Assembly (NCBI RefSeq): GCF_900182545.1
Contig: NZ_FXTJ01000004.1
Location: forward strand, 310,001 to 374,000
Direction of reading: 5' to 3'
Origin: Geodermatophilus aquaeductus
Lineage (GTDB): Bacteria; Actinomycetota; Actinomycetes; Mycobacteriales; Geodermatophilaceae
DNA length: 64,000 nucleotides
Shown: in pieces, positions 17,113 to 50,330 of the stretch
Numbering within the stretch: the stretch's first letter is position 1
Layout: every line of letters begins with the position of its first letter
Translations under genes and position numbers: made by a program
The notes under the pieces: generated by a model
The model's database searches: none
Told to the model about the DNA's origin: nothing
What the model saw: only the letters and a program-made list of their open reading frames with translations

Positions 17113-18611
17113 CGGGCCCAGGGCTCGGGTCCCGCGGGTCCGCCGCCGACCACGGCCGGGTCGTCGGAGCCCTCGTACTCGAAGGACCGCAGCACCACGC
17201 TGCCGTCGGTGCACCAGGCCCCGACCAGGCGGCCGGTCATGCCACCGGCCACCTCCGTGGACAGGTAGCGGCCGTCGACCTCCCCGAGCACCTCGAACCC
17301 GTCGGGCCCCTCCACGCCGGCGAGGACCCGGTCCGGTCCGCGGGCGGTGGAGAACTCGTGCCCCTGGGTGGGGGCCATGCGGAAGCCCAGGCCGGCCTCG
17401 CCGTGGAGGGCACGCTCGCCGAGCACGGTCCGGACGTCGCCCACCGCCCACACCGCCCGCACGACCCCGTCGGCCACCTCGAGGTCGAGCGCGTGCCGCG
17501 GGTCGACGCGGACCGACAGCCCTCCGGTCCCCTCGGCAACCATGCGCGCCCGCACCCGGGCGTAGAGGTGCTCCTGGCGCCGCCCGACGAAGGCGGGACG
17601 GTCCCCGGCGGGCCGGACGAGCCAGCCGCCCTCGGTGCGGGAGACGACCTCCCCCGGGAACGCCGACGCCGCCACCCATGACGGCGGGAGCGCGGTCCCG
17701 GCCAGCTCCTCGCGCGCCACCGCGTCCGCGGGCGCGGCCGGCTCCAGGTGCCCGGTCACCACCGGCCACCCGTCGCGCCACTCGACGTCGTCGGCGAAGG
17801 TCTCGCGGCCGAGGACGTGCCACTCGGGGCTCGACCCCCGGGGACGCACCCCGTGGTAGACGAGCGCCCAGCTGCCGTCCGGGCGCTGCACCAGGTCGGC
17901 GTGGCCGGTGTTCTGCACCGGCAGGTCGGTGCCGCGGTGCGTGACCAGCGGGTTGGACGGGGAGCCCTCGAACGGCCCCTGCGGCGAGGGCCCGCGGGCG
18001 ATGGTGACGGCGTGGCCGCGCTCGGTGCCGCCCTCCGCGATGAGCAGGTACCACTCCTCGCCGATGCGGTACAGGTGCGGGCCCTCGGGGAACTTGCCGC
18101 CCGTGCCCGACCAGATCCAGCGGCGCTCGGTGAGGAGCTCGCCGGTGAGCGGGTCGATCGCCGACTGCACGATGCCCTCGCCGCCGTTCGGGCCGAAGCC
18201 GGCGTAGGTCATCAGGCAGGTGCCGTCGTCGTCCCAGGCGAGGTCCGGGTCGATGCCGATGGCGCCCGGGATGCGCACGGGGTCCGACCAGGGGCCGGCC
18301 GGGTCGTCGGCCCACGCCAGGAGCTGCCCGCCCCCGTCGGACCAGTTGGTCGTGACCATCCAGAACCGGCCGTCGTGGTACCGCAGGGTCGGCGCGAAGA
18401 TCCCCCCGGACGGGCCGGCCGGCGAGACGTCCAGCTGGGACGGGCGGTCCAGCACGTGCCCGACCTGGTCCCAGGACCGCAGGTCGGTCGAGCGGAACAG
18501 CGGGACGCCGGGGGCGTACTCGAAGCTGGAGGTCACCAGCCAGTAGGTGTCCCCCACCCGGCAGACCGACGGGTCGGGGTGGAAGCCGGGCACGACCGGT
18601 CGCTGCGTCAT
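17109..18611 (-). CDS. Glycoside hydrolase family 43 (arabinofuranosidase/xylosidase type)
   Basis: A 500-residue cytoplasmic GH43 enzyme with no signal peptide. The five-bladed propeller holds the catalytic set: base aspartate in 'PGFHPDPSV' near residue 14, pKa-tuning aspartate in 'GIDPDLAWDD', and acid glutamate in 'KFPEGPHLY'. Residues 330-500 form a C-terminal beta-sandwich typical of this subgroup. ATG at 18611 overlaps the stop of the upstream gene. Its intracellular location and operon partners suggest that it removes arabinose or xylose from small imported glycosides rather than from polymer. Choosing between arabinofuranosidase and xylosidase is not possible by eye. Confidence 0.85.
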   Translation of the reverse strand: MTQRPVVPGFHPDPSVCRVGDTYWLVTSSFEYAPGVPLFRSTDLRSWDQVGHVLDRPSQLDVSPAGPSGGIFAPTLRYHDGRFWMVTTNWSDGGGQLLAWADDPAGPWSDPVRIPGAIGIDPDLAWDDDGTCLMTYAGFGPNGGEGIVQSAIDPLTGELLTERRWIWSGTGGKFPEGPHLYRIGEEWYLLIAEGGTERGHAVTIARGPSPQGPFEGSPSNPLVTHRGTDLPVQNTGHADLVQRPDGSWALVYHGVRPRGSSPEWHVLGRETFADDVEWRDGWPVVTGHLEPAAPADAVAREELAGTALPPSWVAASAFPGEVVSRTEGGWLVRPAGDRPAFVGRRQEHLYARVRARMVAEGTGGLSVRVDPRHALDLEVADGVVRAVWAVGDVRTVLGERALHGEAGLGFRMAPTQGHEFSTARGPDRVLAGVEGPDGFEVLGEVDGRYLSTEVAGGMTGRLVGAWCTDGSVVLRSFEYEGSDDPAVVGGGPAGPEPWAR

Positions 18612-20260
18612 CGGGGGTCTCCGGGAGGGATGCGCAGGAGGGTGATCCGGGCGACGCCGAGGTCGTCGAGGGGGACGACGTGCAGCCGCTCGTCGCCGTT
18701 GAGCAGGCGGCCCCGGGTCCAGCGGCCGCCCTCGAGGAGGAGCTCCTCGACCCGGTCGACCTCGACCGTCTCCCCGGGCGCGCTGAAGTCGACGGTCACG
18801 CCCTGGCCGACCAGCAGGAAGGTGTCGTCGCCCTCGGCCATGAGGAGGCCGAACGGCCGGGTGTCCCGCGGCGCCGGTGGCCCCGCCGACCCCTCCGTCT
18901 CGCTGGGTGGCGGAGGCGGCGGGGGCGGGGGCTGGACCCCGGCGTCGAGCAGCATGCGGCCGAGGAGGGCGCGCGAGTCCCGTGCGGTCACGTCGAGGCC
19001 GCCGAGCCGGAAGGAGGAGTCCGGCGCGCCGTCGTCGAGCAGGATGCCGGCGATCCGGTCCTCGCCCTGCGCCGCGGTGATGGCCGTCGCCAGCGGGCGC
19101 AGGAGGGCGTAGGCGCGGGCGAGCTGGCTGTCCGTGCGGCCGTCCTCGATGCCGAAGACGGAGAAGCCGATGGCCCGGTGGTGCCCGAGCGCCCAGAACA
19201 GGCTGCCCGTGCGGAACCGCGTCTCCGGGACGAACAGCGGGTTGTCCGGGCGGTCGTAGTCGGCCATCGCGGCCGCCGCGTCGTCGACGTAGACGTCGGG
19301 TGCGAGCAGGTCGAGCGACGGCGCGCCCGCCTTCCACACGTCGAGCACCCGGGACGTCGGCCCGCCGCTGGGGTACTCCCCCGCCCGGGCCTGGCCCGGC
19401 TGCGGTCCCAGCCAGGCGTTGACGTACATCGGGAGCGGCTTCACGGCCCTGCCCGCCGCGGCCAGCTCCTCGACGTGGCCGGCGAACGCCCAGGCCATGA
19501 AGACCTCCTCGGCCTCCTCGCCGGTGCCGAACACCTCCTCCCACGTGCCGGCGGTGCGCCGGCCGTGGCGCTCCCACAGCTCCGCGAGCTCGGGGCGCAG
19601 CCGGTCGGGGTGCTCCTCGAGGTGGGCCACGAGCTCCTTGGGCACCTCGCCGTGCCAGGCCTCGTCGGCCGCGGGCGAGCGGTCCCGGCTGTCGCCGAGG
19701 AGGCCGACCTCGTTCTCGACCTGGACCATCACGACGACGTGCCCGGGGTCGGTCTCCGCCAGGTGACGCATGAGCGCGACGAAGGCGGCGCGGTCGGCGG
19801 CGAGCAGCTCCGGGGAGAAGACCGACAGGACCGGCTTCGGCATGGCCCCCGGGTAGCTGAACGCCACCGGGCGGCCCCGGGTGACGACGGCGCGGGGGAA
19901 CCGGCCGGGATCCGACCGCACCCACCGGGGGGCGTACGTCGAGGCGGCGTTCTTGAACGCACCGAACCAGAGGAGCACCAGGCGCAGCCCGCGCTCCCGC
20001 GCCGCCTCGACCTGGGCGTCGACGTGCGCGAAGTCGAACGTGCCCTCGACGGGCTCCAGGAGCGCCCAGCTGACGCCGCCGATCACGGTGTCCGCGTGCG
20101 CGGCCGCCACGCGGTCGAGCACCCGGCGCAGGTGCCCCCCGTCGGAGGTCGCCGAGTTGTGCAGCTGGCCGCCGAGCAGGAGCGTCGGTGCGCCGTCGAC
20201 GACCAGCTGGGTCGCGCGGCCGGTGGTGCGCAGGAACGGCAGCGGCCGGGCCCCGGTCAC
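18608..20260 (-). CDS. GH35/GH42-like glycoside hydrolase (beta-galactosidase superfamily)
   Basis: A 550-residue TIM-barrel glycosidase. The clan-A layout is visible: 'VIGGVSWALLEPVEGTFDF' at strand 2, the acid/base glutamate in 'VMVQVENEVGLLG', and the probable nucleophile in 'LFVPETRFR' about 150 residues later. A beta-rich C-terminal domain follows, interrupted by a nine-proline run near residue 445. No secretion signal is present, so it acts on imported compounds. GTG at 20260 overlaps the stop of the fused C-deglycosidase-like gene. The proteins resemble DUF5597-containing beta-galactosidase-like enzymes. The sugar removed is not known. Confidence 0.8.
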   Translation of the reverse strand: MTGARPLPFLRTTGRATQLVVDGAPTLLLGGQLHNSATSDGGHLRRVLDRVAAAHADTVIGGVSWALLEPVEGTFDFAHVDAQVEAARERGLRLVLLWFGAFKNAASTYAPRWVRSDPGRFPRAVVTRGRPVAFSYPGAMPKPVLSVFSPELLAADRAAFVALMRHLAETDPGHVVVMVQVENEVGLLGDSRDRSPAADEAWHGEVPKELVAHLEEHPDRLRPELAELWERHGRRTAGTWEEVFGTGEEAEEVFMAWAFAGHVEELAAAGRAVKPLPMYVNAWLGPQPGQARAGEYPSGGPTSRVLDVWKAGAPSLDLLAPDVYVDDAAAAMADYDRPDNPLFVPETRFRTGSLFWALGHHRAIGFSVFGIEDGRTDSQLARAYALLRPLATAITAAQGEDRIAGILLDDGAPDSSFRLGGLDVTARDSRALLGRMLLDAGVQPPPPPPPPPSETEGSAGPPAPRDTRPFGLLMAEGDDTFLLVGQGVTVDFSAPGETVEVDRVEELLLEGGRWTRGRLLNGDERLHVVPLDDLGVARITLLRIPPGDPR

Positions 20261-21552
20261 CGTGCGCCTGCGAGGCTGCGCAGCAGGGCGTGCTGGCGGC
20301 GGACCTGGTCGGCACCGCGGTAGGGCTCGCGCCGGCCCTCGTACTCGCTCGACAGCCAGCCCGACCAGCCGTGCTCGAGCAGCGTCGGCACGATCTCCCC
20401 CCACGGCACGTGCAGGTCGTGCAGGTCGTCGTCGACCTCGGCGAACTTCGCCTGGATGAAGTGCACGTGCGGCAGCACCTCGACCAGGTCGGCCATCGGC
20501 ACGGCCAGCGGCCGCAGGTGCTCCGGCACCTCCCCGTCGTCGCCGACCTCGATCTCCTCCGAGAGCTCGAGCACCGGCGCGGTGTTGAAGATGCCGGTGT
20601 CGATGAGCAGCTTGAAGTGCTTGCTGCCGGTGCGCTCGATCAGGTCCACGTAGCCCTGGGTCACCGGGTGCCGGATCGGCGTCGGAGCGTGGATCTCCGG
20701 GCAGATGACGACGTCGAGGTCCGCGGCCAGGTCGAGGGAGCGCAGCACCGCCTCCTCCCACACCGGGTGCGGGTCGAGCTGCCAGGAGGTGACGCCGAAC
20801 TTCGGCCGGACGGACGTGAAGCCGAGGCGGTGCGCCAGCCGCAGGTCCAGCTGCAGCTGCGCGGCGGCCTCCTCGCCGGTCAGCGCCCGGTCGCGCCACA
20901 TCTCGGTGTCCACCCACGACCCGTAGTTGGTGGCGGTCAGCCCGTAGCGCTGCAGCAGCCCGTGCCAGGTGTCGATCCACGCCGGGTCGGGCGAGGGGTA
21001 GCCGGGCACGTTGCCCTCGCCGAGGATCTCGATCCCGGTGGCGCCGAGGTCGGCGACGTCGGCCAGCACGTCCTCGAGCGTCATCAGCGTGTAGACGTCG
21101 GCGGTGTAGCTGTAGGTGGAGACGCCGTAGCGCAGGCCGCCCTCCGGCGCCGGCGGCACCAGGACGGCCTTCGCCGAGGCGGTGAACGTCGTCCGCGACA
21201 CCATCGGCGGGAAGTAGGGCCGGCGCAGGTACACGAGGACCTCGACGTCGTGCACGCCGGTGGCCAGCCCGCCCGGCCGCGGGACGGTGATCGTCGCCGG
21301 CTCGTCGAGCTGCCAGCGGACGTCGGTGGTGGCGCGCAGCTCGTCGAGGGTGAACGTGCGGCCCTGCAGCGTCCACAGCGGGACGGAGTCAGGCACCCGC
21401 TCGCCGTCGACGACGACCTCGACGCCGTCGAGCAGGCTGGCGGCGACGCCACGGTAGTTGGGGTTGCGCAGCACGAGCTGGAAGCCGGTGACGCGGCCGT
21501 CCTCGACGACGTTGCGGAAGCCGCGGCCCTGGATGACGTTGCGGTCGAGCAC
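20257..21552 (-). CDS. Fused C-deglycosidase-like protein: DUF6379-like domain + TIM barrel (CarC-CarB type)
   Basis: A single 431-residue frame. Residues 1-125 match the small beta-sandwich subunit of C-glycoside deglycosidases (CarC/DgpB, DUF6379): a strand-rich stretch with 'NPNYRGVAASLLDGVEV' and 'RRPYFPPMV'. A short Pro/Ala linker follows, and residues 140-431 are the xylose-isomerase-like catalytic subunit (CarB/DgpC), with metal ligands expected at Glu286 ('PEIHAP'), Asp318 ('LIDTG'), His364 ('HFIQAKF') and Glu403 ('SSEYEG'). In characterised systems the two parts are separate genes, as at 46-49 kb here. GTG at 21552 sits two bases after the GMC oxidase stop, with AGAGGAG upstream. It should cleave the C-C bond of a 3-keto C-glycoside. 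Confidence 0.8.
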   Translation of the reverse strand: MLDRNVIQGRGFRNVVEDGRVTGFQLVLRNPNYRGVAASLLDGVEVVVDGERVPDSVPLWTLQGRTFTLDELRATTDVRWQLDEPATITVPRPGGLATGVHDVEVLVYLRRPYFPPMVSRTTFTASAKAVLVPPAPEGGLRYGVSTYSYTADVYTLMTLEDVLADVADLGATGIEILGEGNVPGYPSPDPAWIDTWHGLLQRYGLTATNYGSWVDTEMWRDRALTGEEAAAQLQLDLRLAHRLGFTSVRPKFGVTSWQLDPHPVWEEAVLRSLDLAADLDVVICPEIHAPTPIRHPVTQGYVDLIERTGSKHFKLLIDTGIFNTAPVLELSEEIEVGDDGEVPEHLRPLAVPMADLVEVLPHVHFIQAKFAEVDDDLHDLHVPWGEIVPTLLEHGWSGWLSSEYEGRREPYRGADQVRRQHALLRSLAGAR

Positions 21553-21554
21553 GG

Positions 21555-23102
21555 TCAGTTCTCCTCTGGGGTGAGCGCGGCGGCGATGTCCCGGGCCCCG
21601 CCGACGGCGAGGGCGACCGCGGTGAGGGTCGGGTTGCAGGCGATGGGGGTCGGGATGACGCCGTTGCCGGCGACGTAGAGGCCCGCGACGTCCCACACCC
21701 GCGAGGTCGGCGAGCACACCGAGGTGCCGTCGTCGGTCTCCCCCATCCGGACGGTGCCCTGGTAGTGCAGCGAGGCGCCGGGCGGGAAGGTCAGCGGGTC
21801 GCGGTCGTCGAGCGGCTCGCCGAGCGCGGCGGCGGCGCGCCGGACGGCGTCGCGGGCGGCCGCGATCGAGGCGGAGTCGGCCTCGGTGAGCCGGTAGTGG
21901 ATCCGCATCGCCGGCATCCCGTAGGGGTCGGTCTCGGTGTCGGAGAACTCGACCCGGTCGGACTCCTGCAGGTCCTTGGCGCAGAACCAGCCCAGCCCGA
22001 CGATCGTGCCCGGCTCCGGCTCGTCGGCGTCGGCCAGCGGCACCGGCGAGGCGTCGAGCTGCATGACCTGCCCGTGGAAGGGGTCCTCGTCGGTGTAGGG
22101 CACCCAGCTCACGCCGCTCTGCGCGACGATGCGCGGCTGCTCGCGGGGGTCGACGTCGGCCTCGGGGCCGGTGTCGACGTCGCGGAGCCGGACGGCGTAG
22201 ACCGTCTGCGGCTGGTCGTTGAGCCAGCGGCCCAGCGCCCGCGGGCGCACGCCTGAGGCCCACAGCAGCTGGGGGGTGCGCAGGGCGTCGGCGGCCACGA
22301 CGACGAACCGCGCGGCGACCACGTGCTCGCCGCCGTCCTGCAGGTCGCGCACCCGCACGCCGCGCGCCCGGCCGTCGGCGACGACGACCTCGGTCACCAG
22401 CGCCTCGGGCACCAGGGTGAACCGGGGGTTGGCGCGGGTGGGCTCGCCGAAGACGACGTCGGAGCCGGACCAGGTGACCCGCCCGTCGTCGTGCCGGACG
22501 ACGGCCAGCGGCATCGGCGCCACCCGGCGGTCCTCGGCCCGCTCGTCGTCGAGGGCGCCGGACAGGCGCTTGCGGACCTCGCCGGCGAAGGGGGCGTCGT
22601 CGAAGGCGTGGGCGTCCACGCTGAGCAGCCGCTCGCCCTCGGCGAGCAGGTCGTCGAGCTCGGGCAGGAAGCCGATCCGCTCGCGGCCGCCCGGGCGCGG
22701 GCACGCGCCGGTCCAGTGCGCGCCCATCCCGCCGACGTTGCTCGACATGGCCGCACCGGGCAGCCCGTCCTGGCCCGGCTGCCGGTAGCCCGAGGCGAGG
22801 AGGAACGTGCCGGGGCGCACCAGCCGGGGCGCCTCGGTGGCGTAGCCCTCGTTGGTGTCGGTGGGGGTGCCGGCCGGCAGCGGCGCCGGACCCTCGCTGC
22901 GGCGCTGCGCGCGGGCCCGCTCGTCGGGGTCGACGATGTTCTTGACGTGCGTGCCGGGCGGGTCGGCCAGCAGCGGCCCGACCTCGAAGACGGCGATCGT
23001 CGCGTCCGGGCACTGCTCGCTGAGCACCCGCGCGTACGCCGCCCCGCAGGGGCCGCTGCCGACGATGGCCACGTCGACGCGCGCGGGGAGGGTCCTGGTC
23101 AT
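21555..23102 (-). CDS. GMC oxidoreductase, C-glycoside 3-oxidase/pyranose oxidase type (CarA-like)
   Basis: A 515-residue FAD enzyme of the GMC family: dinucleotide motif 'GSGPCGAAYAR' at residue 15, flavin-contacting 'NVGGMGAHWT' with His129, and the catalytic pair His446 ('SLHYQGTVRMG') and Asn490 ('ACNPTLTAVALA'). This arrangement is that of actinobacterial pyranose oxidases and C-glycoside 3-oxidases, which oxidise a sugar hydroxyl at C2 or C3 with oxygen or another acceptor. The gene directly precedes the fused CarC-CarB-type protein, the same order as oxidase and C-deglycosidase in known C-glycoside pathways. Oxidation at C3 of a C-glucoside is therefore the best guess. There is no signal peptide, so it is cytoplasmic. 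Confidence 0.85.
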   Translation of the reverse strand: MTRTLPARVDVAIVGSGPCGAAYARVLSEQCPDATIAVFEVGPLLADPPGTHVKNIVDPDERARAQRRSEGPAPLPAGTPTDTNEGYATEAPRLVRPGTFLLASGYRQPGQDGLPGAAMSSNVGGMGAHWTGACPRPGGRERIGFLPELDDLLAEGERLLSVDAHAFDDAPFAGEVRKRLSGALDDERAEDRRVAPMPLAVVRHDDGRVTWSGSDVVFGEPTRANPRFTLVPEALVTEVVVADGRARGVRVRDLQDGGEHVVAARFVVVAADALRTPQLLWASGVRPRALGRWLNDQPQTVYAVRLRDVDTGPEADVDPREQPRIVAQSGVSWVPYTDEDPFHGQVMQLDASPVPLADADEPEPGTIVGLGWFCAKDLQESDRVEFSDTETDPYGMPAMRIHYRLTEADSASIAAARDAVRRAAAALGEPLDDRDPLTFPPGASLHYQGTVRMGETDDGTSVCSPTSRVWDVAGLYVAGNGVIPTPIACNPTLTAVALAVGGARDIAAALTPEEN

Positions 23103-23125
23103 GGCTGCTCTCTCTCGTGGTGCGG

Positions 23126-24205
23126 TCAGGCGGGGACGTCGACCCACCGCGCGGACGCGGCGGACTCGAGGACGGCGGCGGTGACGCGGGCGGCGCGGAC
23201 GCCGTCGGCGAAGGTGGGCAGGCCGTCGGGCGCGGAGCCGGCGACGGCGGCATGGGTGTCGGCGACGAAGGCGTCGAAGCAGTCCTGGTAGCCCTGCGGG
23301 TGGCCGGCGGGGACGACGGAGTAGCGGGCGCCGGCCGGGCCACCGGACGCGCCGCGCAGCAGCTGCCGGTTGACCTCGCGGCCGCCGATCCACAGCGAGT
23401 CGGGGTTCTCCTGGTCGAAGCAGAGGCTCTCGGCCGCGCCGTCGACGGAGAACCACAGCCGGTTCTTGCGGCCCGGCGTCACCTGGCTGACCGTCAGGTT
23501 GCCCACCGCGCCGCGGTCGGTCTCGAACAGCACGACGGCGGCGTCCTCGGTGGTGACCGGCCGGCCGCCGCGCTCCGGGTGGACGGTGAGGGTGCGCGCG
23601 GCCAGGCGGGTGATCCGGTGGCCGGAGACGAACTCGACGAGGTCGCACCAGTGCACGCCGATGTCGGCGAAGGCCCGCGAGGCACCGCCGGTGGCGGCGT
23701 CGACCCGCCAGTCGTCGTCGGTGTCGGCGGCCAGCCAGTCCTGCAGGTAGGAGCCGTGCAGCAGCCGCACCGGGCCGGCGCTGCCGTCGGCGACCCGCGC
23801 CCGCGCCTCGCGCACCGTCGGGTAGAAGCGGTAGACGAACGGCACGGTCGCGGTCACCCCGGCCGCGGTGGCCAGGTCGTGCAGCTCCTGCGCCTCGGCG
23901 GCGTCGACGGCCAGCGGCTTCTCGCACACGACGGACTTGCCGGCCGCGACCGCCGCGCGCACCAGCGGCGCGTGCGTGGCGTTCGGCGTGCACACGTGGA
24001 CGACGTCGACGTCGTCGGCGGCCAGCAGCTCCTCGACGGTGTCGGTGGCCGACTCCGCGCCGATCCGCTCGCGGCCGGCGCGCGAGGACTCCGGCGTCGA
24101 GCCGGCCACGCGGGCGACCACTCCCCCGCTGCGGCGGACCGCGCGGGCGTGCACGGTGCCCATGAAGCCGGTCCCGACGATGCCGGCCCGGATGCGATCG
24201 GTCAC
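23126..24205 (-). CDS. Gfo/Idh/MocA-family oxidoreductase
   Basis: A 359-residue dehydrogenase with N-terminal 'AGIVGTGFMG' for NAD(P), 'CEKPLAVDAAEA' with the catalytic lysine, and 'DIGVHWCDLVEFV' in the C-terminal domain where the family keeps its active-site histidine. The length is typical. GTG 24205 follows GAGGA. It is the first catabolic gene after the transporter genes and lies just ahead of the GMC oxidase. DgpA, the C-glycoside 3-oxidase of a puerarin-degrading gut bacterium, belongs to this family, so this protein could either oxidise the glycoside or reduce the released 3-keto sugar. Confidence 0.85.
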   Translation of the reverse strand: MTDRIRAGIVGTGFMGTVHARAVRRSGGVVARVAGSTPESSRAGRERIGAESATDTVEELLAADDVDVVHVCTPNATHAPLVRAAVAAGKSVVCEKPLAVDAAEAQELHDLATAAGVTATVPFVYRFYPTVREARARVADGSAGPVRLLHGSYLQDWLAADTDDDWRVDAATGGASRAFADIGVHWCDLVEFVSGHRITRLAARTLTVHPERGGRPVTTEDAAVVLFETDRGAVGNLTVSQVTPGRKNRLWFSVDGAAESLCFDQENPDSLWIGGREVNRQLLRGASGGPAGARYSVVPAGHPQGYQDCFDAFVADTHAAVAGSAPDGLPTFADGVRAARVTAAVLESAASARWVDVPA

Positions 24206-24330: not shown

Positions 24331-25209
24331 TCAGCCGGCCGCCTGCGCGGCGGCGAAGCGGTGCCGTTCCGCGCGGCGCTCGGCCTGCCGCCGCGGGTCG
24401 GGCACCGGCGCCGCCAGGAGCAGGCGCCGGGTGTAGGGGTGGTCGGGGGCGGTGGTCACCGCGGCGGCGTCGCCGGTCTCGACGAGCTCGCCGCGGTACA
24501 TGACCGCGACCCGGTGGCTGATGTGCCGCACGACCGACAGGTCGTGGGTGACGAAGAGGTAGGCGACGCCGGTCCGCTCCTGGATCTCGATGAACAGGTC
24601 GAGGACGCGGGCCTGGGTGGACAGGTCCAGGGCGCTCACCGGCTCGTCGCAGACGACGAGCTTCGGGTCACGGGTCAGCGCGCGGGCGATGGCGATGCGC
24701 TGCCGCTGGCCGCCGGAGAACTCCCGCGGCAGCCGGCTCACGGCGTCGGCCGGCAGGTGCACCTGGTCGAGCAGCTCACGCACCCGCCGCTGCGCGTCGG
24801 ACCGCGACGAGCCGGTCACCAGCAGCGGCTCGGTGAGGATGTCGCCGACGGTCATCGCGGGGTTCAGCGACGTGTACGGGTCCTGGAAGACCACCTGGAC
24901 GTCGCGGCTGAGCGCCCGGCGCTCGCGCCTGCCCAGGTTCGACACGACGCGGCCGCCGAGCCGGATCTCGCCCCCGGTGACCGGCGCGAGCCCGAGGATC
25001 GCCCGGCCGAGCGTGGTCTTGCCCGAGCCGGACTCCCCGACCAGGCCGAGGGTCTCCCCGGCGCCGATCTCCAGCGAGATGCCCTTGAGGACCCGCACCG
25101 GCGGGCGGCGCCAGCCCGTGACCGGGTAGTCGACGACCAGCCGGTCGACGGTCAGGAGGGGGGCGGACACGGTGCTCGTCGACTCGGCACTCATCGGCTG
25201 GGCGCTCAT
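24331..25209 (-). CDS. ABC transporter ATP-binding protein, dipeptide/oligopeptide type (DppF/OppF-like)
   Basis: A 292-residue ATPase with Walker A 'GESGSGKTTLG', signature 'EFSGGQRQRIAIARAL', Walker B 'LVVCDEPVSALD' and H-loop 'THDLSVV'. The C-terminal extension 'HPYTRRLLLAAP' marks the peptide/opine/nickel (PepT) family. A second ATG (25194) lies five codons in and could also be used. The stop of the upstream permease-ATPase fusion overlaps its start. Together with the fused protein it powers uptake. Family members also import oligosaccharides and glycosides, which fits the enzymes downstream. Confidence 0.9.
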   Translation of the reverse strand: MSAQPMSAESTSTVSAPLLTVDRLVVDYPVTGWRRPPVRVLKGISLEIGAGETLGLVGESGSGKTTLGRAILGLAPVTGGEIRLGGRVVSNLGRRERRALSRDVQVVFQDPYTSLNPAMTVGDILTEPLLVTGSSRSDAQRRVRELLDQVHLPADAVSRLPREFSGGQRQRIAIARALTRDPKLVVCDEPVSALDLSTQARVLDLFIEIQERTGVAYLFVTHDLSVVRHISHRVAVMYRGELVETGDAAAVTTAPDHPYTRRLLLAAPVPDPRRQAERRAERHRFAAAQAAG

Positions 25210-27050
25210 CGGGGACCTCCGGAGGTCAGCGGGGCGGGCGCGATCTCCTCGGGGTGCAGGCCGGCCCCGGCGAGGGCGCCCCGGGCCGGGGTGTCCTCGA
25301 GCGTGGAGCCGAGCAGCATCCGCGTGTACTCGTGCTGCGGGTCGGCGAACAGCCGCTCCGCCGGGGCGGACTCGACGATCCGCCCGTCGCGCATGACGGC
25401 GACGGTGTCGCAGACGTCGGCGACGACGCCGAAGTCGTGGGTCACCAGGACCACGCCCATCTGCCGCTCGGCCTGCAGCTCGCGGACGAGGTCGAGCACC
25501 TCGGCCTGCACGGTGACGTCGAGGGCCGTCGTCGGCTCGTCGGCGATGAGCAGGTCGGGGTCGCAGGAGACGGCGCCGGCGATGAGGACCCGCTGGGCCA
25601 TCCCGCCGGAGACCTGGTGGGGGTAGGAGGCGAAGACGCGGGCCGGGTCGGGGATGCCCACCCGGTCGAGCAGCTGCAGGGCCCGGGTGCGCGCCTCGTC
25701 CTTCGACAGCCCGAGGTGGTGGCGCATCGGCTCGGTGAGCTGGGAGCCGATCGTGAACGAGGGGTCGAGGTTGCTCATCGGCTCCTGCGGGATGTAGCCG
25801 ATCCGGCGGCCGCGCAGCCGGTTCATCGCCGCCGGGGACAGCCCCCGCAGGTCGGTGCCGTCGAAGGTCATCCGCGCCGCGGAGGTGCGCGCCTGCGGCG
25901 GCAGCAGGCCGAGGACGGCGAAGGCGGTCTGGGACTTGCCCGAGCCGGACTCGCCGACCAGGCCGAGCACCTCGCCGCGCCGGACGGTCAGCGACACCCC
26001 GTGGACGACCTCGCGCTCGGTGCCCTCCGGCGTCGGGTAGGCCACCCGCAGGCCGTCGAGGACCAGCAGCGCGTCCGGGACGTCGGGGGCCGCCGGGACC
26101 TCCCCGCCGGCCGCGACGACCGGCGGTGCGTCCGTCCGCTGCCGGCGGCGGACCCGCGGGACCCGGCCGGAGACGCCGAGCGCGTCGCGCAGCGCGTTGC
26201 CCAGCAGGCTGAACGCGGTGACGGTGAGGACGATCGCCAGCGCCGGCCACAGCAGCAGCCGCGGTTGGGCGTAGATGTTCTGGAAGGCGTCGCTGAGCAT
26301 CCCGCCCCAGCTGGCCTGGTTGGCCGAGCCCAGGCCGAGGAACTCCAGCCCGGCCTGGATGACGATCGCGATGCCGAGCAGCTGCGAGACCTGGATGACC
26401 GTCGGCGGGACGACGACCGGGAGCACGTGGCGGCGCATGATCCGCGCGTCGGACAGCCCGGCCACCCGGGCGGCGTCGACGTAGAGCTCCTCGCGGACGG
26501 CGATCACCGACGAGCGGACCAGCCGGAAGACGCCCGGGGCGATGATCACGCCGAAGACTGCCATCGCCAGCGCGGTGCTGCGGCCGAACTGGGCCAGCAC
26601 CACCAGCAGCACGATGATCGCCGGCAGCGCCATGAGCAGGTTCGCCACCCAGCTGGCGACGGCGTCGAACCGGCCGCGGCGGTAGCCGGCGAGCACGCCG
26701 GCCGGCAGGCCGAGCAGCAGCGAGACCGCGACGACGATCAGCGACCCGATCAGGCTGGTCCGCGCGCCGTAGAGCAGCTGCGCCCAGACGTCGCGGCCGA
26801 CGCCGTCGGTGCCGAGCGGGTGGTCCCCGCCCATCGGCGCGAGCGCCTCGGTGATCTTCGACGCCGTCGGGCTCTGCGAGGTGAGCAGCGGGGCCAGGAG
26901 GGCCAGCACGGCGACGGCGACCAGCCAGACCAGCGCGACGACGGCGACGGGGTTGCGCAGCAGCCGGCGCACCGCCCCGGCACGGGCGGGCGCGGCGACG
27001 GCGTCGACGGGCGCGGGGCCGGCCGGGCCGGCGTCGGACAGGATGCTCAT
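25206..27050 (-). CDS. ABC transporter permease-ATPase fusion, dipeptide type (DppC-DppD)
   Basis: A 614-residue two-part protein. Residues 1-290 are a DppC-like permease with six membrane segments, an N-terminal extension and the EAA loop near 'YVDAARVAGLSDARIM'. After a short linker, residues 320-614 are a DppD-like ATPase with 'GESGSGKSQTA', 'QVSGGMAQRVLIAGA', 'LLIADEPTTALDVT' and the family's 'HEYTRMLLGSTL' tail. Such fusions occur in actinobacteria and cyanobacteria but are a minority form. The start overlaps the DppB-like gene's stop and the end overlaps the second ATPase gene. Confidence 0.9.
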   Translation of the reverse strand: MSILSDAGPAGPAPVDAVAAPARAGAVRRLLRNPVAVVALVWLVAVAVLALLAPLLTSQSPTASKITEALAPMGGDHPLGTDGVGRDVWAQLLYGARTSLIGSLIVVAVSLLLGLPAGVLAGYRRGRFDAVASWVANLLMALPAIIVLLVVLAQFGRSTALAMAVFGVIIAPGVFRLVRSSVIAVREELYVDAARVAGLSDARIMRRHVLPVVVPPTVIQVSQLLGIAIVIQAGLEFLGLGSANQASWGGMLSDAFQNIYAQPRLLLWPALAIVLTVTAFSLLGNALRDALGVSGRVPRVRRRQRTDAPPVVAAGGEVPAAPDVPDALLVLDGLRVAYPTPEGTEREVVHGVSLTVRRGEVLGLVGESGSGKSQTAFAVLGLLPPQARTSAARMTFDGTDLRGLSPAAMNRLRGRRIGYIPQEPMSNLDPSFTIGSQLTEPMRHHLGLSKDEARTRALQLLDRVGIPDPARVFASYPHQVSGGMAQRVLIAGAVSCDPDLLIADEPTTALDVTVQAEVLDLVRELQAERQMGVVLVTHDFGVVADVCDTVAVMRDGRIVESAPAERLFADPQHEYTRMLLGSTLEDTPARGALAGAGLHPEEIAPAPLTSGGPR

Positions 27051-27988
27051 GCGATCCGCACCTTCGGGTTGAGCCAGCCCAGCACGACGTCGACCAGCAG
27101 GTTGACCAGGACGACGACGACCACGGCGACCACGACGATCCCGAGGACCAGCGGCACGTCGCCCTGGCCCGCCGCGGACGTGGCGCGCTCGCCGAGGCCG
27201 TTGAGGCCGAACACCTTCTCGATGACGACCGCGCCGCTGATGAGCGCGATGAACTGGAGGGACAGGACGGTGAGCGACGCGGGGGCGGCGTTCCGCAGCG
27301 CGTGCTTGAGCAGCACGCTGCGCGTGGGCAGGCCCCGGCTGCGCAGCGTCCGGACGTAGTCCTGCTGCAGCACGTCGATCATCGAGCCGCGGGTCTGGGT
27401 GGCCACGGTGGCGATGGCGCCGATGGCCAGGGCGATCGCCGGGAGGGTGATCGAGGCCAGCCAGGCGCCCGGGTCGTCGGTGAACGCGGTGTAGCCGAGG
27501 GCCGGGAAGAGCCCCAGCTCGACGGCGAAGACGAGGGAGAGCACCAGCCCGACGAGGAAGTTCGGCACGGCGAAGGCCACCGTCGAGATCCCCTGCAGCA
27601 GGCCGTCGAGCCAGCCGCCGCGCACCGCGGCGACCACGCCCAGCACGATGCTCACCGCGGCGGTGAGCACGGTGGCCGCGACCACCAGCGACAGGGACAC
27701 CGGGAGGGCGTCTCCGATGAGCCCGCCGATCTGCTCGTTGGTGAACCACGACGTGCCGAGGTCACCGCGCAGCGCGCCGGTCAGCCAGTCCCAGTAGCGC
27801 TCGAGGACGGGCCGGTCCAGACCGAGCTCGGCGGACTTGGCGGCCACCTGGTCGAGGCCGGCCGTGGGGCCGAGGATGCGGCGGGCCGGGTCGGAGCCGG
27901 TGAGGCTGGTCAGGAAGAAGGTCAGCGTCGCGATGACCCAGACCAGCGCCACACCGGCGCCGAGGCGGCGGAGCAGGAAGAGGAGCAC
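27047..27988 (-). CDS. ABC transporter permease, dipeptide type (DppB-like)
   Basis: A 313-residue permease. It starts with the amphipathic 'LLFLLRRLGAGVALVWVIATLTFFL' -like first helix usual for DppB, has about six membrane segments and carries the EAA-like loop 'YVRTLRSRGLPTRSVLLKHALRNA', which contacts the ATPase. GTG 27988 is in place for the full first helix. It pairs with the permease half of the downstream fusion. A long hairpin separates it from the upstream binding-protein gene. Confidence 0.9.
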   Translation of the reverse strand: MLLFLLRRLGAGVALVWVIATLTFFLTSLTGSDPARRILGPTAGLDQVAAKSAELGLDRPVLERYWDWLTGALRGDLGTSWFTNEQIGGLIGDALPVSLSLVVAATVLTAAVSIVLGVVAAVRGGWLDGLLQGISTVAFAVPNFLVGLVLSLVFAVELGLFPALGYTAFTDDPGAWLASITLPAIALAIGAIATVATQTRGSMIDVLQQDYVRTLRSRGLPTRSVLLKHALRNAAPASLTVLSLQFIALISGAVVIEKVFGLNGLGERATSAAGQGDVPLVLGIVVVAVVVVVLVNLLVDVVLGWLNPKVRIA

Positions 27989-28021
27989 GGTCGGCCTCCG
28001 GGGCGGGATCGGTGCCGGGCG

Positions 28022-28060
28022 GCCCGTGCCGGCGGGGTGGTCTCCCCCGCCGGCACGGGC
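28022..28060 (-). terminator. 16-bp perfect stem-loop after the binding-protein gene
   Basis: Arms 28022-28037 and 28045-28060 pair perfectly around a seven-base loop, starting six bases after the stop of the solute-binding-protein gene. Such structures often protect the binding-protein message and reduce read-through, so that more binding protein than permease is made. Confidence 0.7.
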
Positions 28061-28066
28061 TCTCGG

Positions 28067-29599
28067 TCAGCTGCCGGCGGGCTCGAAGCCGGTCAGCGGG
28101 GGGACGCTCACGCCGGGCACCGCGGTGACCGCGACGTCGGTCGTGGTGATGAAGGTGCCCTCCGCGGCATCCCAGGGGGCGAACCACGCCTGGTCGACGA
28201 GGTAGCGGTTGAGCTCCTGCAGCGCCGCCGTCTGCTCGTCGCCGCTGGTCGTCTGGGCCTGCTGCACGAGGCGGTCGACCTCGGGGTCGGCGTTCTTGAA
28301 GGGGTTGAACGGCGACTGCTGGGTCAGCGTCAGGCCGATCATCTCGAACGGCGACCCGGCGGTGAGGTTGAAGAAGTTGGCCGGCCACTGGCCGCCGATG
28401 ATGCTGCCGACGACCTGGTCACCGGTGATCGGCGAGTAGGTCACCTCGATGCCGAGGGAGGCGAACGCCTCGGTCATCGCCGCCTGCTCGTCGGGGTAGA
28501 CCGGCGAGAAGTCCGGCAGCGTCATCGAGAAGCCGTCGGCGTAGCCGGCCTCGGCCATGAGCTCCTTCGCCCGGTCGACGTCGAACTCGTAGGTGTCCTC
28601 GAGCGACTCGTCGTAGGCCGGCGAGTTCGGGCCGAAGACCTGCACGGTGGGCTCGCCGAGCCCGCCCTTGACGGTCTCGACGATCGTCTCGCGGTCCATG
28701 GCGAAGTTGATGGCCTGCCGCACGCGCACGTCGGCCAGCGCCGGGACCAGCGCGCCGGCGCGGTCCCAGAGGTACACGCCCTCGATGCCGCCGTTGGTGT
28801 AGGTGGTCACGGTCAGCCCGGCGTTCTCGGCGCCGGTGGTGACGTCGCTGGTCCCGCCGGCGACGCCGTTGATCTCGCCGGAGCGCAGGCCGTTGAGGAT
28901 CGCGGTGGTGTCGTCGAGGTAGCGGATCTCGAGGGAGTCGTAGGGGAAGTCCTCGGCGTTCCAGTAGTCCTCGTTGCGCGTGTAGACGTAGGTGCTGCCC
29001 GCCGTCGAGGCGTCGGCGTCGAGCACGTAGGGCCCGGAGCCGACCGGGGCGGTGGCCAGGTCGGGGCTCGCGAGCGCCGCGGGGCTGGCCACGTAGCCGG
29101 AGCTGCGGGACAGGCTCTGCAGCAGGGCGGGGTCGGGCCGGCTGAGCACCACGTCGGCGTGGGTGGCGTCGACCACCTCGACCGAGGAGATCGCGCCCAG
29201 CGCCGACCCGGCCTCGCCGGACCTGCCCTTCGCGGCCTCGAGGTTGGCCTTGACCGCCTCGGCGTCGAAGGCCGTGCCGTCGCTGAAGGTGACGTCGTCG
29301 CGCAGGGTCAGGCTCAGCCGGGTGTTGGTCTCGTCGTAGGACCACTCGGTGACGAGGTTGGCGACCGGCTGGCCGTCCTCGTCCAGCTCGAGCAGCGTGT
29401 CGTAGACCGCCTGGTAGTAGTGGTCCTCCGGCCCGCTCTGCGCCATCTCGCCGACCGCGAAGGAGCTCGGCGGCGTCACGGCCGCGAGGGTGAGCTCCGT
29501 GCTGTCGCCGGAGCCGGAGCTCTCGCCGGAGGACCCGCCGCAGGCGGCGGTGAGGAGCAGGACGGACGCGGCCGTGGCCGCGACGAGGGACCTACGCAT
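28067..29599 (-). CDS. ABC transporter substrate-binding lipoprotein (SBP_bac_5 family)
   Basis: A 510-residue extracellular lipoprotein. The signal peptide ends in the lipobox 'LLTAAC', with Cys20 the lipidation site, followed by a Ser/Gly-rich tether. The mature part has the family 5 features: 'TLRDDVTFSDGTAFDAEAV' and 'VRVRQAINFAMDRE'. These proteins bind peptides, nickel, opines or oligosaccharides. Its operon with glycosidases and a CarA/CarB-type set suggests a glycoside ligand. It is the first gene after a strong promoter with an inverted repeat in its spacer, so it should be induced by the same substrate. Confidence 0.9.
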   Translation of the reverse strand: MRRSLVAATAASVLLLTAACGGSSGESSGSGDSTELTLAAVTPPSSFAVGEMAQSGPEDHYYQAVYDTLLELDEDGQPVANLVTEWSYDETNTRLSLTLRDDVTFSDGTAFDAEAVKANLEAAKGRSGEAGSALGAISSVEVVDATHADVVLSRPDPALLQSLSRSSGYVASPAALASPDLATAPVGSGPYVLDADASTAGSTYVYTRNEDYWNAEDFPYDSLEIRYLDDTTAILNGLRSGEINGVAGGTSDVTTGAENAGLTVTTYTNGGIEGVYLWDRAGALVPALADVRVRQAINFAMDRETIVETVKGGLGEPTVQVFGPNSPAYDESLEDTYEFDVDRAKELMAEAGYADGFSMTLPDFSPVYPDEQAAMTEAFASLGIEVTYSPITGDQVVGSIIGGQWPANFFNLTAGSPFEMIGLTLTQQSPFNPFKNADPEVDRLVQQAQTTSGDEQTAALQELNRYLVDQAWFAPWDAAEGTFITTTDVAVTAVPGVSVPPLTGFEPAGS

Positions 29600-43206: not shown

Positions 43207-44733
43207 TCACTGGCTCGCCACGCCGGCCACCGCCGGGGTCCCGGCGAGGTCGGCCGCCAGCGCCCGGGCCGCCCGGATCGCCAGCGCGACGCTGGTGAGC
43301 GTCGGGTTGCACGAGTTGGCCGTGGGGATGAGCCCGTTGCCGGCCAGCACGAGGCCGGGGACGCCCCAGACCCGGGAGAACGGGTCGCAGACGCTCGTGC
43401 CGTCGTCGACCGGGCCCATGCGGACCGTGCCCATGTAGTGCAGCGAACTGCCGGCCGGCATCACCTTCGGCATCCCGTCGAGGAACTCGCCGAGCGCGGC
43501 GGCCACCCGGGCCTGGTGCACGCGGGCGCGGGCGAACTCGGCATCCTCGCGCTCGGTGAGCGCGTAGGCGATGCGGATGCCCGGCAGCCCGTGCTCGTCG
43601 GGCCGGTCGTCCTCGAAGGTCAACCGGTCCTCGGGACGGGGCCACTTGCGGATTCCCCAGCCCATGCCCACGTAGCCGGCCGGGTTGTCCCGGAACCGGC
43701 TGCCCTCGCGCAGGGGCGCCGGCGAGACCGGGTTCCACATCAGCTGGGCGTGGTAGGGGTGCCGCTCCTCGTCGAAGCCGACGGACACGATGGCCCGGAT
43801 CGGGTCGACCGGCGCCGTCGGGTCCTCCCGCTCAGGCACCAGGTCGGGCCGCACGGCGACCACGCCGAACAGCAGCGGGTGCTCGGTGAGATAGCGGCCG
43901 AGCGCGGCGGGCCGGATGCCGGAGGCCCAGAGCAGCTGCGGCGTGCGGAGGGCGTCGGCGGCGACCACCACCGCGTCGGCGCGCACCTCCTCCTCGTCCC
44001 CGGTGCGCAGGTCGCGGAGCACGGCACCCACGACCCGGTCACCCTCGCGCACCAGCCGGACGCACAGGGTCTGCGACCGGAGGGTGAACCGCTCGTCGTC
44101 GGGGACGCCGTCGAGGACGACGTCGGTGCCGCTCCAGCGCAGTGAGCCGTCCGGTCGCGGATCGGCCGCCACCGGCAGCGGTCGCACGGTGATGCCGTCG
44201 GGGGCGAGCTCGGCGCGGACCGCCTCCAGGATGGCCGAGGCCTGCGGCGCTCCCTCGAAGCTCGGCCGGTGGACGTGCAGCACCCCCTCGGCCTCGGTGA
44301 CCAGTTCCTCCCACTCGGCCTCGTCGAGGAACGGGATCCGCTCGCTGCCGACCGGCCGCGGGGTGGCGCAGGTCCAGTGCACCCCCTGGCCGCCGACGCA
44401 CGTGGCGCCCGCGGCCGCGGGCATACCCGGGGAGCCCTCGGCGGCCGTGCCGATCAGGTGGGTGCCCTGCCGCGCGGTGATGGTGCCCTCGACGACGACG
44501 CCGCCGGGGATGCCCGACACCCCGCTCTCGGTGGAGGGTCCCTGGGACGCCAGCCGGGCGGCCGCCTGCTCCGCGGGGTCGGGGATGTTCTTCACGTTCA
44601 TGCCGGCCGGGCGGCTGACCACGGGCCCGGCCTCGACCATGAGGACCGAGACGTCGGCCAGGTGCTCGAGCAGGACCCGGGCATGGGTGGCGCCGGTGGG
44701 TCCGCTGCCGATCACGAGGATCCGGGGGGTCAT
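43207..44733 (-). CDS. GMC oxidoreductase, C-glycoside oxidase/pyranose oxidase type (second of tandem pair)
   Basis: A 508-residue FAD enzyme with 'VIGSGPTGATHARV', flavin-contact 'CVGGQGVHWTCA' (His119), and catalytic His432 ('SSLHYMGTVRMG') with Asn476 ('SCNPTLTSVALA'). It differs clearly from the neighbour upstream, for example Gln instead of Met before the GVHWT motif, and has a different middle section, so substrate or position specificity should differ. ATG 44733 overlaps that neighbour's stop. It should oxidise a sugar hydroxyl of an imported glycoside. Confidence 0.8.
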   Translation of the reverse strand: MTPRILVIGSGPTGATHARVLLEHLADVSVLMVEAGPVVSRPAGMNVKNIPDPAEQAAARLASQGPSTESGVSGIPGGVVVEGTITARQGTHLIGTAAEGSPGMPAAAGATCVGGQGVHWTCATPRPVGSERIPFLDEAEWEELVTEAEGVLHVHRPSFEGAPQASAILEAVRAELAPDGITVRPLPVAADPRPDGSLRWSGTDVVLDGVPDDERFTLRSQTLCVRLVREGDRVVGAVLRDLRTGDEEEVRADAVVVAADALRTPQLLWASGIRPAALGRYLTEHPLLFGVVAVRPDLVPEREDPTAPVDPIRAIVSVGFDEERHPYHAQLMWNPVSPAPLREGSRFRDNPAGYVGMGWGIRKWPRPEDRLTFEDDRPDEHGLPGIRIAYALTEREDAEFARARVHQARVAAALGEFLDGMPKVMPAGSSLHYMGTVRMGPVDDGTSVCDPFSRVWGVPGLVLAGNGLIPTANSCNPTLTSVALAIRAARALAADLAGTPAVAGVASQ

Positions 44734-46235
44734 GCGTGCGCCTCCTCGGCGACGGGGGCCATCTGGGCGACCAGGGCCCGGGCGGTGAGCACGCCGAACG
44801 CGACGGCGGTGAGGGTGGGGTTGCAGGCGGTCGCGGTCGGGATGACGTTGTTGCCCCCGACGTGCAGGTTCGCCGTCCCCCACACCCGTCCGGTGGGGTC
44901 GCAGACGCTGCTGCCGTCGTCGGACGTGCCCATCCGGGTGGTGCCGAGGTAGTGCAGGGAGCTGCCGGCCGGCATGAGGAACGGCTCGCCCAGCGGCCGG
45001 CCCAGCGCCTCGGCGGCGCCGCGGATCTCGGCCGTGGCCTGCGCGATGGTCGCGCGGTCGGCGTCCGAGAGGCGGTAGTCGATCCGGATCGCCGGGAGGC
45101 CGTGCTCGTCGGTCGCGGTGTCGTCGAACCACACGCGGTTGTCGGGTGAGAGCTCCTTGCGGCAGAACCAGCCCAGCCCGACGACCTGCCCGGGCCGCAC
45201 CGTCACGCCCGGGTCGAGCGGCACCGGGGAGGCGTCCATCTGCATGACCTGGCCGTGGAAGGGACGGTCGGCCGCGTAGGGCACCCAGGAGACCCCGGAG
45301 ACCGGCACGATCGCACCGCCGCCCGGCGCCGCGGCGGACGAGCGCGGCAGGTCCACGTCGACGGGCGCGCCGGCGGCCACGTACCGCTCGTCGAGCACGG
45401 ACGCGGCCATGACCTGTGGGTGCTCGGTGAGATAGCGGCCGAGCGCCGTCGGCCGGATGCCGGAGGCCCACAGCAGCTGCGGCGTGCGGAAGGCGTCGGC
45501 GGCGACGACGACGGCGCGGGCGGCGACCGTGTCCCGGGCACCGGTGGCCAGGGCGACGACCTCCACGCCGGTGGCCCGGTCGCCGTCGAGCAGGACGCGG
45601 CGCACCAGCGTGCGCGTGCGGAGGGTGACCTGCGGCCGGTCCCACAGGTCACCGGCGACGACCGCCGGGCCGGTCCAGTGCAGCGCGCCGTCCTCCCCCA
45701 CGCTCACCGCGACCGGCATGGCGCCGACGGGGCGGCGCCCGGGCCGGTCGAACAGCTCGCCGAGCACCCGCTGGACCGCGCCGGTCAATGGCGCCCGGTC
45801 GAAGGCGTGCGTGGTGACGGCGAGCAGCTCCTCGGCCCGGGTGAGCGCGGCGTCGAGCACCGCCGGGTCGACGCAGTCGGGGACCTCGTCGTCGGCGGGC
45901 CGCGGGCAGGCCGCCGTCCAGTGGGCGCCCATCCCGCCGACGTTGGTGGAGATCGCGGCGTTGGGCATGTCCGCGGACCCCACCAGGACGGTGCCCGGCC
46001 GCGCCGCCGTGCCGCCGGGCAGCGCTGCCGGGCCCCCGGCCAGCGCTGCCAGGGCGGCGTCGCGGGCCGCGACGTCGGCGATGTTCTTGACGTGGCCGCC
46101 GGGCACCTCGCCGACGACCGCGCCGGCCTCCACGACGAGGACCTGCAGGGAGGGATCGAGGTCGGTGAGCTCCCGGGCGACGGCGGTGCCGACGGGTCCC
46201 GAGCCCACCACGACGACGTCGTACGAGGCGCTCAT
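44730..46235 (-). CDS. GMC oxidoreductase, C-glycoside 3-oxidase type (CarA-like, first of tandem pair)
   Basis: A 501-residue FAD enzyme with 'VVGSGPVGTAVAREL', 'TNVGGMGAHWTAACPRP' (His105), catalytic His428 ('SSLHYLGTTRMG') and Asn472 ('ACNPTLTAVAFG'). It is closer to the GMC oxidase at 21.5-23.1 kb than to its tandem neighbour (same GGMGAHWT and 'VSWVPYAADRPFHGQVMQMDASP' region). Its ATG overlaps the stop of the CarB-like gene, so oxidase and C-deglycosidase-like subunits are translated together, as expected for successive steps. Confidence 0.85.
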   Translation of the reverse strand: MSASYDVVVVGSGPVGTAVARELTDLDPSLQVLVVEAGAVVGEVPGGHVKNIADVAARDAALAALAGGPAALPGGTAARPGTVLVGSADMPNAAISTNVGGMGAHWTAACPRPADDEVPDCVDPAVLDAALTRAEELLAVTTHAFDRAPLTGAVQRVLGELFDRPGRRPVGAMPVAVSVGEDGALHWTGPAVVAGDLWDRPQVTLRTRTLVRRVLLDGDRATGVEVVALATGARDTVAARAVVVAADAFRTPQLLWASGIRPTALGRYLTEHPQVMAASVLDERYVAAGAPVDVDLPRSSAAAPGGGAIVPVSGVSWVPYAADRPFHGQVMQMDASPVPLDPGVTVRPGQVVGLGWFCRKELSPDNRVWFDDTATDEHGLPAIRIDYRLSDADRATIAQATAEIRGAAEALGRPLGEPFLMPAGSSLHYLGTTRMGTSDDGSSVCDPTGRVWGTANLHVGGNNVIPTATACNPTLTAVAFGVLTARALVAQMAPVAEEAHA

Positions 46236-47263
46236 CGGGCGGCCACCGCTGGTTCGGCCTCGAGCAGCCGCTTGAGCATGTCGTGCTGCGACCGGATCTG
46301 GTCGAAGGCGCTGTACCGGTCGCTGTAGGCGTGCGCCTCGTACTCGCTGGAGACGAACCCGGTGTAGCCCTGCTCGCGCAGGACGCGCGCGACGGCCGGC
46401 CAGTCGATCGACGGGTCGGTGAGGCCGTCCGGGCCGTCGACGATCCCGTAGAACTTGCCGTGCACGTGCACGACGTGGGGGAAGAACTCGGCCCACCGCT
46501 CGGGCGCCATCCGCCCGTGCATCGTGAACAGCATCCGGAGGTTGCCCAGCTGCGCCGGGGTCGCGCCGGCCTCGGCGGCGCGCCGCTCGAGCTCGGGGAA
46601 CTTCGCCATCGTCGGCCCGGGCTCGGCCCACAGCTCCTTGGTCAGCGCGGTGAGCTCCGGGGAGATGCCGGCGACGCGGTGGGCGTCGTCGACGGCGTCG
46701 GGGACCGCCCGCATGCTCGCGCTCATGTCGGGGATGAAGCCCAGCCACGGGGTGTCCAGCCGGGTGAACAGCTCCTTGAGCGCGGCGACCGGCGGCGCCT
46801 CGATGGTCAGCGGGGCGTGGATCTCCACGCCGACCTTGACGCCGAGCTGCTCGGCGAGCGGCAGCAGCCGGGTCATGATCTCCGGGCCGCACTCGATGCC
46901 CACCCGGACGGCGGGGAAGCCGAGCGCCGCGGCGCCGCGCACCTGGACGGCGACGTACTCGTACGCCTCGTCGTCGGACAGCAGCCGGCCGGGGTAGAGC
47001 CCCAGGTCGAGGTTGATCGCCAGGCAGGACGGGGTGAGCCCGGAGGCGTCGATCACGCCGCGGACCTCGCGGACGGCGTCGTCGTCGAGGCGCGGCCAGC
47101 CGCGCAGGCTCTGGAAGGCGACCATCTCCAGCCCGGGACCGAGGTCGCGGGCGGCGACCTCGGCGACCAGGCTGGCGAGGTCCCGGCCGGGCCTGCGCTG
47201 CTCGAGGGTGAGGCTGAACAGGGTGGTGCCGAGGCGGGGCAGCCCCGGCGCGGTGTCCGTCAC
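46232..47263 (-). CDS. C-deglycosidase alpha-subunit-like TIM barrel (CarB type, divergent copy)
   Basis: A 343-residue barrel with metal ligands expected at Glu147 ('GVEIHAP'), Asp179 ('FIPDMSAS'), His268 ('HVHGKFYG') and Glu307 ('SSEYEAHAY'). The 'EIHAP', 'PDM' and 'SSEYE' motifs are shared with the other CarB-like proteins in this window. The N-terminal third is quite different ('LGTTLFSLTLEQRRPG'). GTG 47263 overlaps the stop of the small DUF6379-like gene, the expected partner. It probably cleaves a C-glycosidic bond after oxidation, but could act on another 3-keto glycoside. Confidence 0.75.
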   Translation of the reverse strand: MTDTAPGLPRLGTTLFSLTLEQRRPGRDLASLVAEVAARDLGPGLEMVAFQSLRGWPRLDDDAVREVRGVIDASGLTPSCLAINLDLGLYPGRLLSDDEAYEYVAVQVRGAAALGFPAVRVGIECGPEIMTRLLPLAEQLGVKVGVEIHAPLTIEAPPVAALKELFTRLDTPWLGFIPDMSASMRAVPDAVDDAHRVAGISPELTALTKELWAEPGPTMAKFPELERRAAEAGATPAQLGNLRMLFTMHGRMAPERWAEFFPHVVHVHGKFYGIVDGPDGLTDPSIDWPAVARVLREQGYTGFVSSEYEAHAYSDRYSAFDQIRSQHDMLKRLLEAEPAVAAR

Positions 47264-47670: not shown

Positions 47671-47681
47671 GGCGTGTCCTC

Positions 47682-49090: not shown

Positions 49091-49103
49091 GGGGTCCTCC
49101 CGG

Positions 49104-50330
<1,227 letters not shown>

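Follow-up and report, generated by a model that had tools for sequence, protein, structure and literature searches.

Several solved C-glycoside deglycosidases (CGDs) are built from separate chains, an alpha TIM barrel and a smaller beta subunit. They include EuCGD (DfgA-DfgB) of Eubacterium cellulosolvens (7BVS, 7DRE), described as alpha4beta4, the CarB-CarC enzymes MiCGD and AgCGD2 (AgCarB2-C2; 7DNM), and DaCGD of Deinococcus aerius (8QVC, 8UMC). The ligand set of the hetero-oligomeric CGDs is given as one His, two Glu, one Asp and one Lys (PMC8563793, cited from an excerpt here and below, as are the other PMC articles). In AgCGD2 these ligands are Glu147, Asp179, His269, Lys271 and Glu305, with His149 as the base and Glu307 in addition (PMC8563793). 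Wild-type single-chain C-glucosyl deglycosidase of Microbacterium testaceum is also in the PDB (8QRZ, and 8UN2 by cryo-electron microscopy; released 2025-04-23). Among the matches listed by a literature search, which covered few subscription journals, none dealt with a fused CGD or with 8QRZ/8UN2. Here we analyse a gene of Geodermatophilus aquaeductus that lies at 20257-21552 (minus strand) of a 64,000-nucleotide stretch, called the window (NZ_FXTJ01000004.1, positions 310,001 to 374,000). Its product is very probably a single-chain CGD, that is, a metal-dependent beta-eliminase of 3-keto glycosides, with activity, metal and substrate all predicted.

The two subunits are joined in one reading frame

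The gene starts with GTG and encodes 431 residues followed by a stop. Pfam places PF19906 (CGDB, formerly DUF6379) at residues 2-113 (E 1.9e-38) and PF01261 (AP_endonuc_2, a xylose-isomerase-like TIM barrel) at residues 164-426 (E 9.8e-18), both above cut-off, in the same frame and with the barrel after the beta domain. The protein is divided into a beta domain (residues 1-125; 21178-21552), a linker (residues 126-141; 21130-21177) and an alpha domain (residues 142-431; 20260-21129). These matches bear out the original prediction that one uninterrupted frame joins a beta-type N-terminal domain to a barrel, and the N-terminal part folds like the beta subunit; a fold unlike that of CarC had been named as a refutation.

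The open frame around the gene extends to 1028 residues, and since long open frames are common in the GC-rich DNA of this region, openness is weak evidence for a fusion and the weight of the case rests on homologues. The protein is conserved from end to end, with 51-83% identity to 17 fused relatives in the alignment, and the G+C content of codon position 3 is 0.98 in the beta part, 1.00 in the linker and 0.99 in the alpha part. Full-length conservation and codon-position composition rule out a chance open frame in GC-rich DNA. The region 20257-21552 is confirmed as a natural fusion, in which the small (beta) subunit precedes the TIM barrel, and is not an assembly error.

The window protein is 50% identical to 8QRZ, a single chain of 435 residues with the beta domain ahead of the TIM barrel, and the two share the same fold over 422 residues. 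8QRZ belongs to a different fused clade: the fused protein of the Microbacteriaceae locus L052 scores 825 bits against it, and the window protein 450. A solved natural example of this architecture exists, contrary to the earlier statement that no such fusion had been described, and the window gene adds one enzyme to the single-chain type. The nearest solved two-chain enzyme is EuCGD (alpha E 5.5e-59, beta E 3.1e-20), which differs in its separate chains and in the His at the ligand position. Its alpha subunit lacks the four-helix lid domain (PMC8563793), and the fused alpha part, at 290 residues, equals the 290-residue DfgA chain in length. MiCGD and AgCGD2 share the predicted reaction class and the metal site. 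The barrel had earlier been described as CarB-like, but DfgA is closer in sequence (E 5.5e-59 versus 1.1e-16 for 7dnm_A). MiCGD and AgCGD2 differ in having separate chains, and AgCGD2 is described as bearing a lid domain as well as a ligand His. DaCGD, of the same family as the window protein, likewise has separate chains and His at the ligand position. The levoglucosan beta-eliminase LgdB1 was considered as a relative of the same architecture and rejected, as its cluster consists of PF01261 proteins of about 275 residues (PMC10066097) and a mass of about 30 kDa is given (PMC7676230).

A Gln occupies the position of the metal-ligand His

By alignment, the ligand positions of the window protein are Glu286, Asp318, Gln367, Lys369 and Glu403, accompanied by His288 and Glu405. 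The close alpha set contained 39 distinct sequences from 53 rows, and in all 39 of them Glu286, Asp318, Lys369, Glu403, His288 and Glu405 were invariant. Position 367 was Gln in 38 of the 39 and His in one, the gene of genome G566 (three rows). Glu286, Asp318 and Glu403, which the original prediction had named, also do not vary in the alignment with the 17 fused relatives. His364, which it also named, is not the metal-ligand position; it is His in just 24 of the 39 sequences, and the aligned ligand position is Gln367.

The window protein thus departs from the hetero-oligomeric CGDs both in its ligand set (PMC8563793), with Gln367 in place of His, and in having one frame instead of separate alpha and beta chains. 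Because 8QRZ, titled a C-glucosyl deglycosidase, has Gln at the same fourth ligand position, the ligand His does not define the wider CGD family. In a set of 49 alpha rows at greater distance, with duplicates counted, 30 had His at the ligand position and 19 had Gln. The unfused alpha subunit encoded elsewhere in the window (48068-49090) also has Gln, where DaCGD, its nearest solved relative, has His. Since Gln occurs in unfused alpha subunits as well, including this DaCGD-like one, it is not tied to the fusion. In the beta domain, Tyr33 aligns with Tyr39 of DgpB (alignment to 7bvr_B) and is invariant in 18 of 18 aligned fused proteins; Tyr39 of the PuCGE beta subunit is described as specifically important for C-glycoside cleavage (PMC10628242).

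The fusion is patchily distributed

In an order-wide sample, 20 of 397 genomes matched the window protein at E 0.001 or better. In thirteen of these, the source genome among them, the match spanned the two domains within a single frame uninterrupted by stops, and seven had partial or separate matches. Within the family, full-length fused genes (E 1e-30) were carried by 14 of 112 genomes (source included) from 7 of 12 genera, which indicates a patchy occurrence. Carriers were few in phylum-wide samples: of 396 genomes, P0001 matched three at E 1e-10, and PF19906 matched five, three of them above cut-off. The genome search proposed earlier did recover the uninterrupted gene from independent genomes.

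In named genomes, 37 loci were found by patterns derived from the window protein and are hence biased to close kin; several are the same genes as loci of the genome samples (identical rows). Twenty-two of them were fused, 21 from Actinomycetota and one from Marinomonas, and 15 were split. The fused loci came from Blastococcus, Klenkia, Geodermatophilus, Goekera, another Geodermatophilaceae bacterium, Streptomyces, Actinocorallia, Actinomadura, Microbacterium, Pseudolysinimonas, Pseudoclavibacter and Marinomonas. Ten split loci were close relatives (Arthrobacter, Paenarthrobacter, Amycolatopsis, two Streptomyces and one Microbacterium), and five were distant (Bacillus, Neobacillus and two uncultured gut-type assemblies). 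The gammaproteobacterial gene, in Marinomonas spartinae (L064, 8001-9284), is 59% identical and has no GMC oxidase in the 17 kb analysed; its occurrence suggests horizontal transfer. One genome, G352, carries two fused copies (L010 and L024), which share 76% and 62% identity with the window protein.

Subunit fusion may have occurred repeatedly

In the ten close split loci of named genomes (L055-L063 and L065), the stop codon of the beta gene overlaps the start of the alpha gene, as ATGA in eight and as GTGA in two, and the start codons of the alpha genes were assigned from this overlap. In all ten, the overlap sits exactly at the linker, and the residues to either side of it can be aligned with the fused protein. 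The basal split gene, in G566, also has an ATGA overlap. With duplicates included, and four rows without an anchor left out, the anchor-to-anchor distance was 45 residues in 29 of 34 fused rows and 46-47 in the other five; among 11 split rows it was 42 in nine and 45 in two.

In trees built without the linker, two changes between the fused and the split state are required in the close family. The grouping of all fused rows as one clade was rejected (approximately unbiased test, p 0.021), as was that of all split rows (p 0.027). The tested groups were set by gene architecture and rows were thinned after the first tree, and the long branches L071, L064 and L024 call for caution. A history of two fusions and one of a fusion followed by a split fit equally by count, at two changes each; the equal linker length in both fused clades leans mildly towards the latter.

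Near the first fused gene, four loci of Microbacteriaceae (L050, 9306-10802; L051, 9259-10767; L052, 5950-7464; L053, 5347-6861) carry a second beta-alpha fusion, which is AgCGD2-like and about 500 residues long. Its hosts are Microbacterium sp. C5A9, a Pseudolysinimonas and two Pseudoclavibacter, with open frames of 499-505 residues. CGDB and PF01261 were both above cut-off in all three of the four proteins tested, and in the alignment of all four, which runs along their length, the linker is more variable. A structure model of the L051 protein, built from four sequences, was of middling quality, with a predicted local distance difference test score (pLDDT) of 70.5. The best solved relative of the L051 protein is two-chain AgCGD2 (alpha E 4.8e-126, beta E 7.4e-24), and the linker measures 41-47 residues by the anchors applied; this indicates a probable independent fusion in another branch of the family.

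On balance, we somewhat favour a recurrent fusion of the subunits, with at least two origins from different two-chain stocks, one DfgAB-like and the other the AgCGD2-like stock of Microbacterium, Pseudolysinimonas and Pseudoclavibacter. At least one further change between one and two chains would have occurred in the first type, through a shift of frame where the genes overlap (ATGA/GTGA), with the operon order oxidase-beta-alpha kept.

Gene neighbourhood and a second cluster in the window

All window genes described here lie on the minus strand. Two bases separate the GTG start of the fused gene from the stop of a GMC oxidoreductase gene (21555-23132, start not settled), and a Shine-Dalgarno-like GAGGAG (21561-21566), which ends 8 bases before the GTG, lies within the end of that gene. 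The oxidoreductase is of the C-glycoside-3-oxidase/PsG3Ox type according to its PDB matches (7qf8, PsPOx/PsG3Ox, E 1.2e-203; 7dve, MtCarA, E 2e-200) and to Pfam; its NCBIfam pyranose_ox match is below cut-off. It is followed upstream by a Gfo/Idh/MocA oxidoreductase gene (23126-24205; Pfam, with NCBIfam matches below their cut-offs) and by an Opp/Nik-type ABC transporter (24331-29599) with an ATPase, a permease-ATPase frame, a permease and a binding protein. The NCBIfam matches of the transporter are strong, yet remain below the equivalog cut-offs, and so do not tell the compound transported. The permease-ATPase frame (25206-27050), of 614 residues, combines Opp-type permease sequence (26-291) with an ATPase portion (327-589) and is another fusion of subunits. 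Downstream lies a GH35-type beta-galactosidase-like gene (18608-20224; NF051902, 542.6 bits against a cut-off of 500; Pfam).

With GMC homologues defined by E 1e-20 or better and coverage of 60% or more, 21 of the 22 named fused loci had one, and in 12 of the 22 it lay immediately upstream in the same orientation. Nine of the ten close split loci had one directly upstream, and the contig of the tenth starts about 366 bases before the gene. The order GMC-beta-alpha is thus common to many fused and split forms.

A second C-glycoside-type cluster spans 44730-50330, with genes for a putative GMC oxidase, alpha, beta, beta and alpha subunits, and a MalK-type ABC ATPase upstream. It contains two unfused alpha genes (48068-49090, nearest solved chain DaCGD 8qvc_A; 46232-47263, PF01261 E 3.1e-12) and two unfused beta genes (47682-48068, PF19906 E 1.8e-30; 47260-47670, PF19906 E 1.1e-9), so that the unfused pairs previously noted in the window are present at the Pfam level. 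The arrangement recalls the two B and two C genes described near PsG3Ox (PMC10646112).

Proposed function and alternative explanations

In the proposed pathway, the Opp-type transporter would import a plant C-glycoside, and the GMC oxidase encoded just upstream would oxidise C3 of its glucosyl group. His288 and the barrel metal site (Glu286, Asp318, Gln367, Lys369 and Glu403) would then abstract the proton at C2. While the bond between sugar and aglycone is broken, Tyr33 in the N-terminal beta domain would help to hold the ionised phenol. That both domains lie in one chain is shown by the sequence and from homology to the solved single-chain enzyme.

Several observations weigh against this function. 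The window protein has Gln where solved two-chain CGDs (AgCGD2, PuCGD, EuCGD and DaCGD) have their ligand His, and alanine at this position is reported to have strongly cut activity in PuCGD and MiCGD (PMC8563793); 8QRZ bears the same Gln, but no activity data were found for it. Residues 34-36, beside Tyr33, have pLDDT below 50 in the predicted structure. Ten of the 22 named fused loci have no GMC gene directly upstream on the same strand; in these, the homologue lies at another place in the stretch, on the opposite strand or, in Marinomonas, is absent from the stretch. In addition, a preference for C- over O-glycosides cannot be read from sequence. An enzyme of the same fold, chemistry and single chain may instead act in nature on a 3-keto O-glycoside or on a different conjugate of a 3-keto sugar. 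PuCGE cleaves 3-keto O- and C-glucosides alike (PMC10628242), glycosidase-like genes are also present at the locus, and the Gln replacement fits such a substrate too. We nevertheless regard this alternative as rather unlikely, given the conserved beta domain and Tyr33, linked to C-glycoside cleavage (PMC10628242), the neighbouring oxidase of C-glycoside-3-oxidase type and the name of the nearest solved enzyme; it overlaps the proposed CGD function except in substrate, and our confidences in the two are not exclusive.

The remaining alternatives concern the frame itself. A lost stop or base error could have merged two overlapping genes, and a single frameshift would mimic a fusion, as the separate genes of close relatives overlap by 4 bases at this very point. 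This is negligibly probable: the gene is uninterrupted in 12 further genomes among the 397 of the order sample, in 14 of the 112 of the family (source included) and in 22 of the 37 named loci, its linker is near constant in length, and a solved single chain (8QRZ) exists. The sequencing or assembly error raised as a possible refutation in the original prediction is excluded by these independent genomes. One gene might also yield two products, with an internal start in the linker giving a free alpha subunit, and the window gene does have a GTG at codon 132 with AAGG ending 8 bases before it. We consider this very unlikely, as the Shine-Dalgarno-like match at GTG132 was limited to the window gene among 23 fused genes examined. 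One other gene (L034) had a match at a different codon, TTG140, and L040, L050 and L051 had no start codon in the scanned stretch; a conserved internal start is not supported.

Implications for the family

The earlier suggestion that a single chain indicates that domain proximity suffices, or that it fixes a 1:1 ratio, is a reasonable inference. Gln at the metal-ligand position and the probable repeated fusion are modest new points that are worth following. Single-chain CGDs are expected to be easier to express and to engineer than enzymes with two subunits. If fusion has indeed been recurrent, the family would offer natural matched pairs of fused and split enzymes, about 60% identical, which would allow the value of the covalent link to be tested directly.
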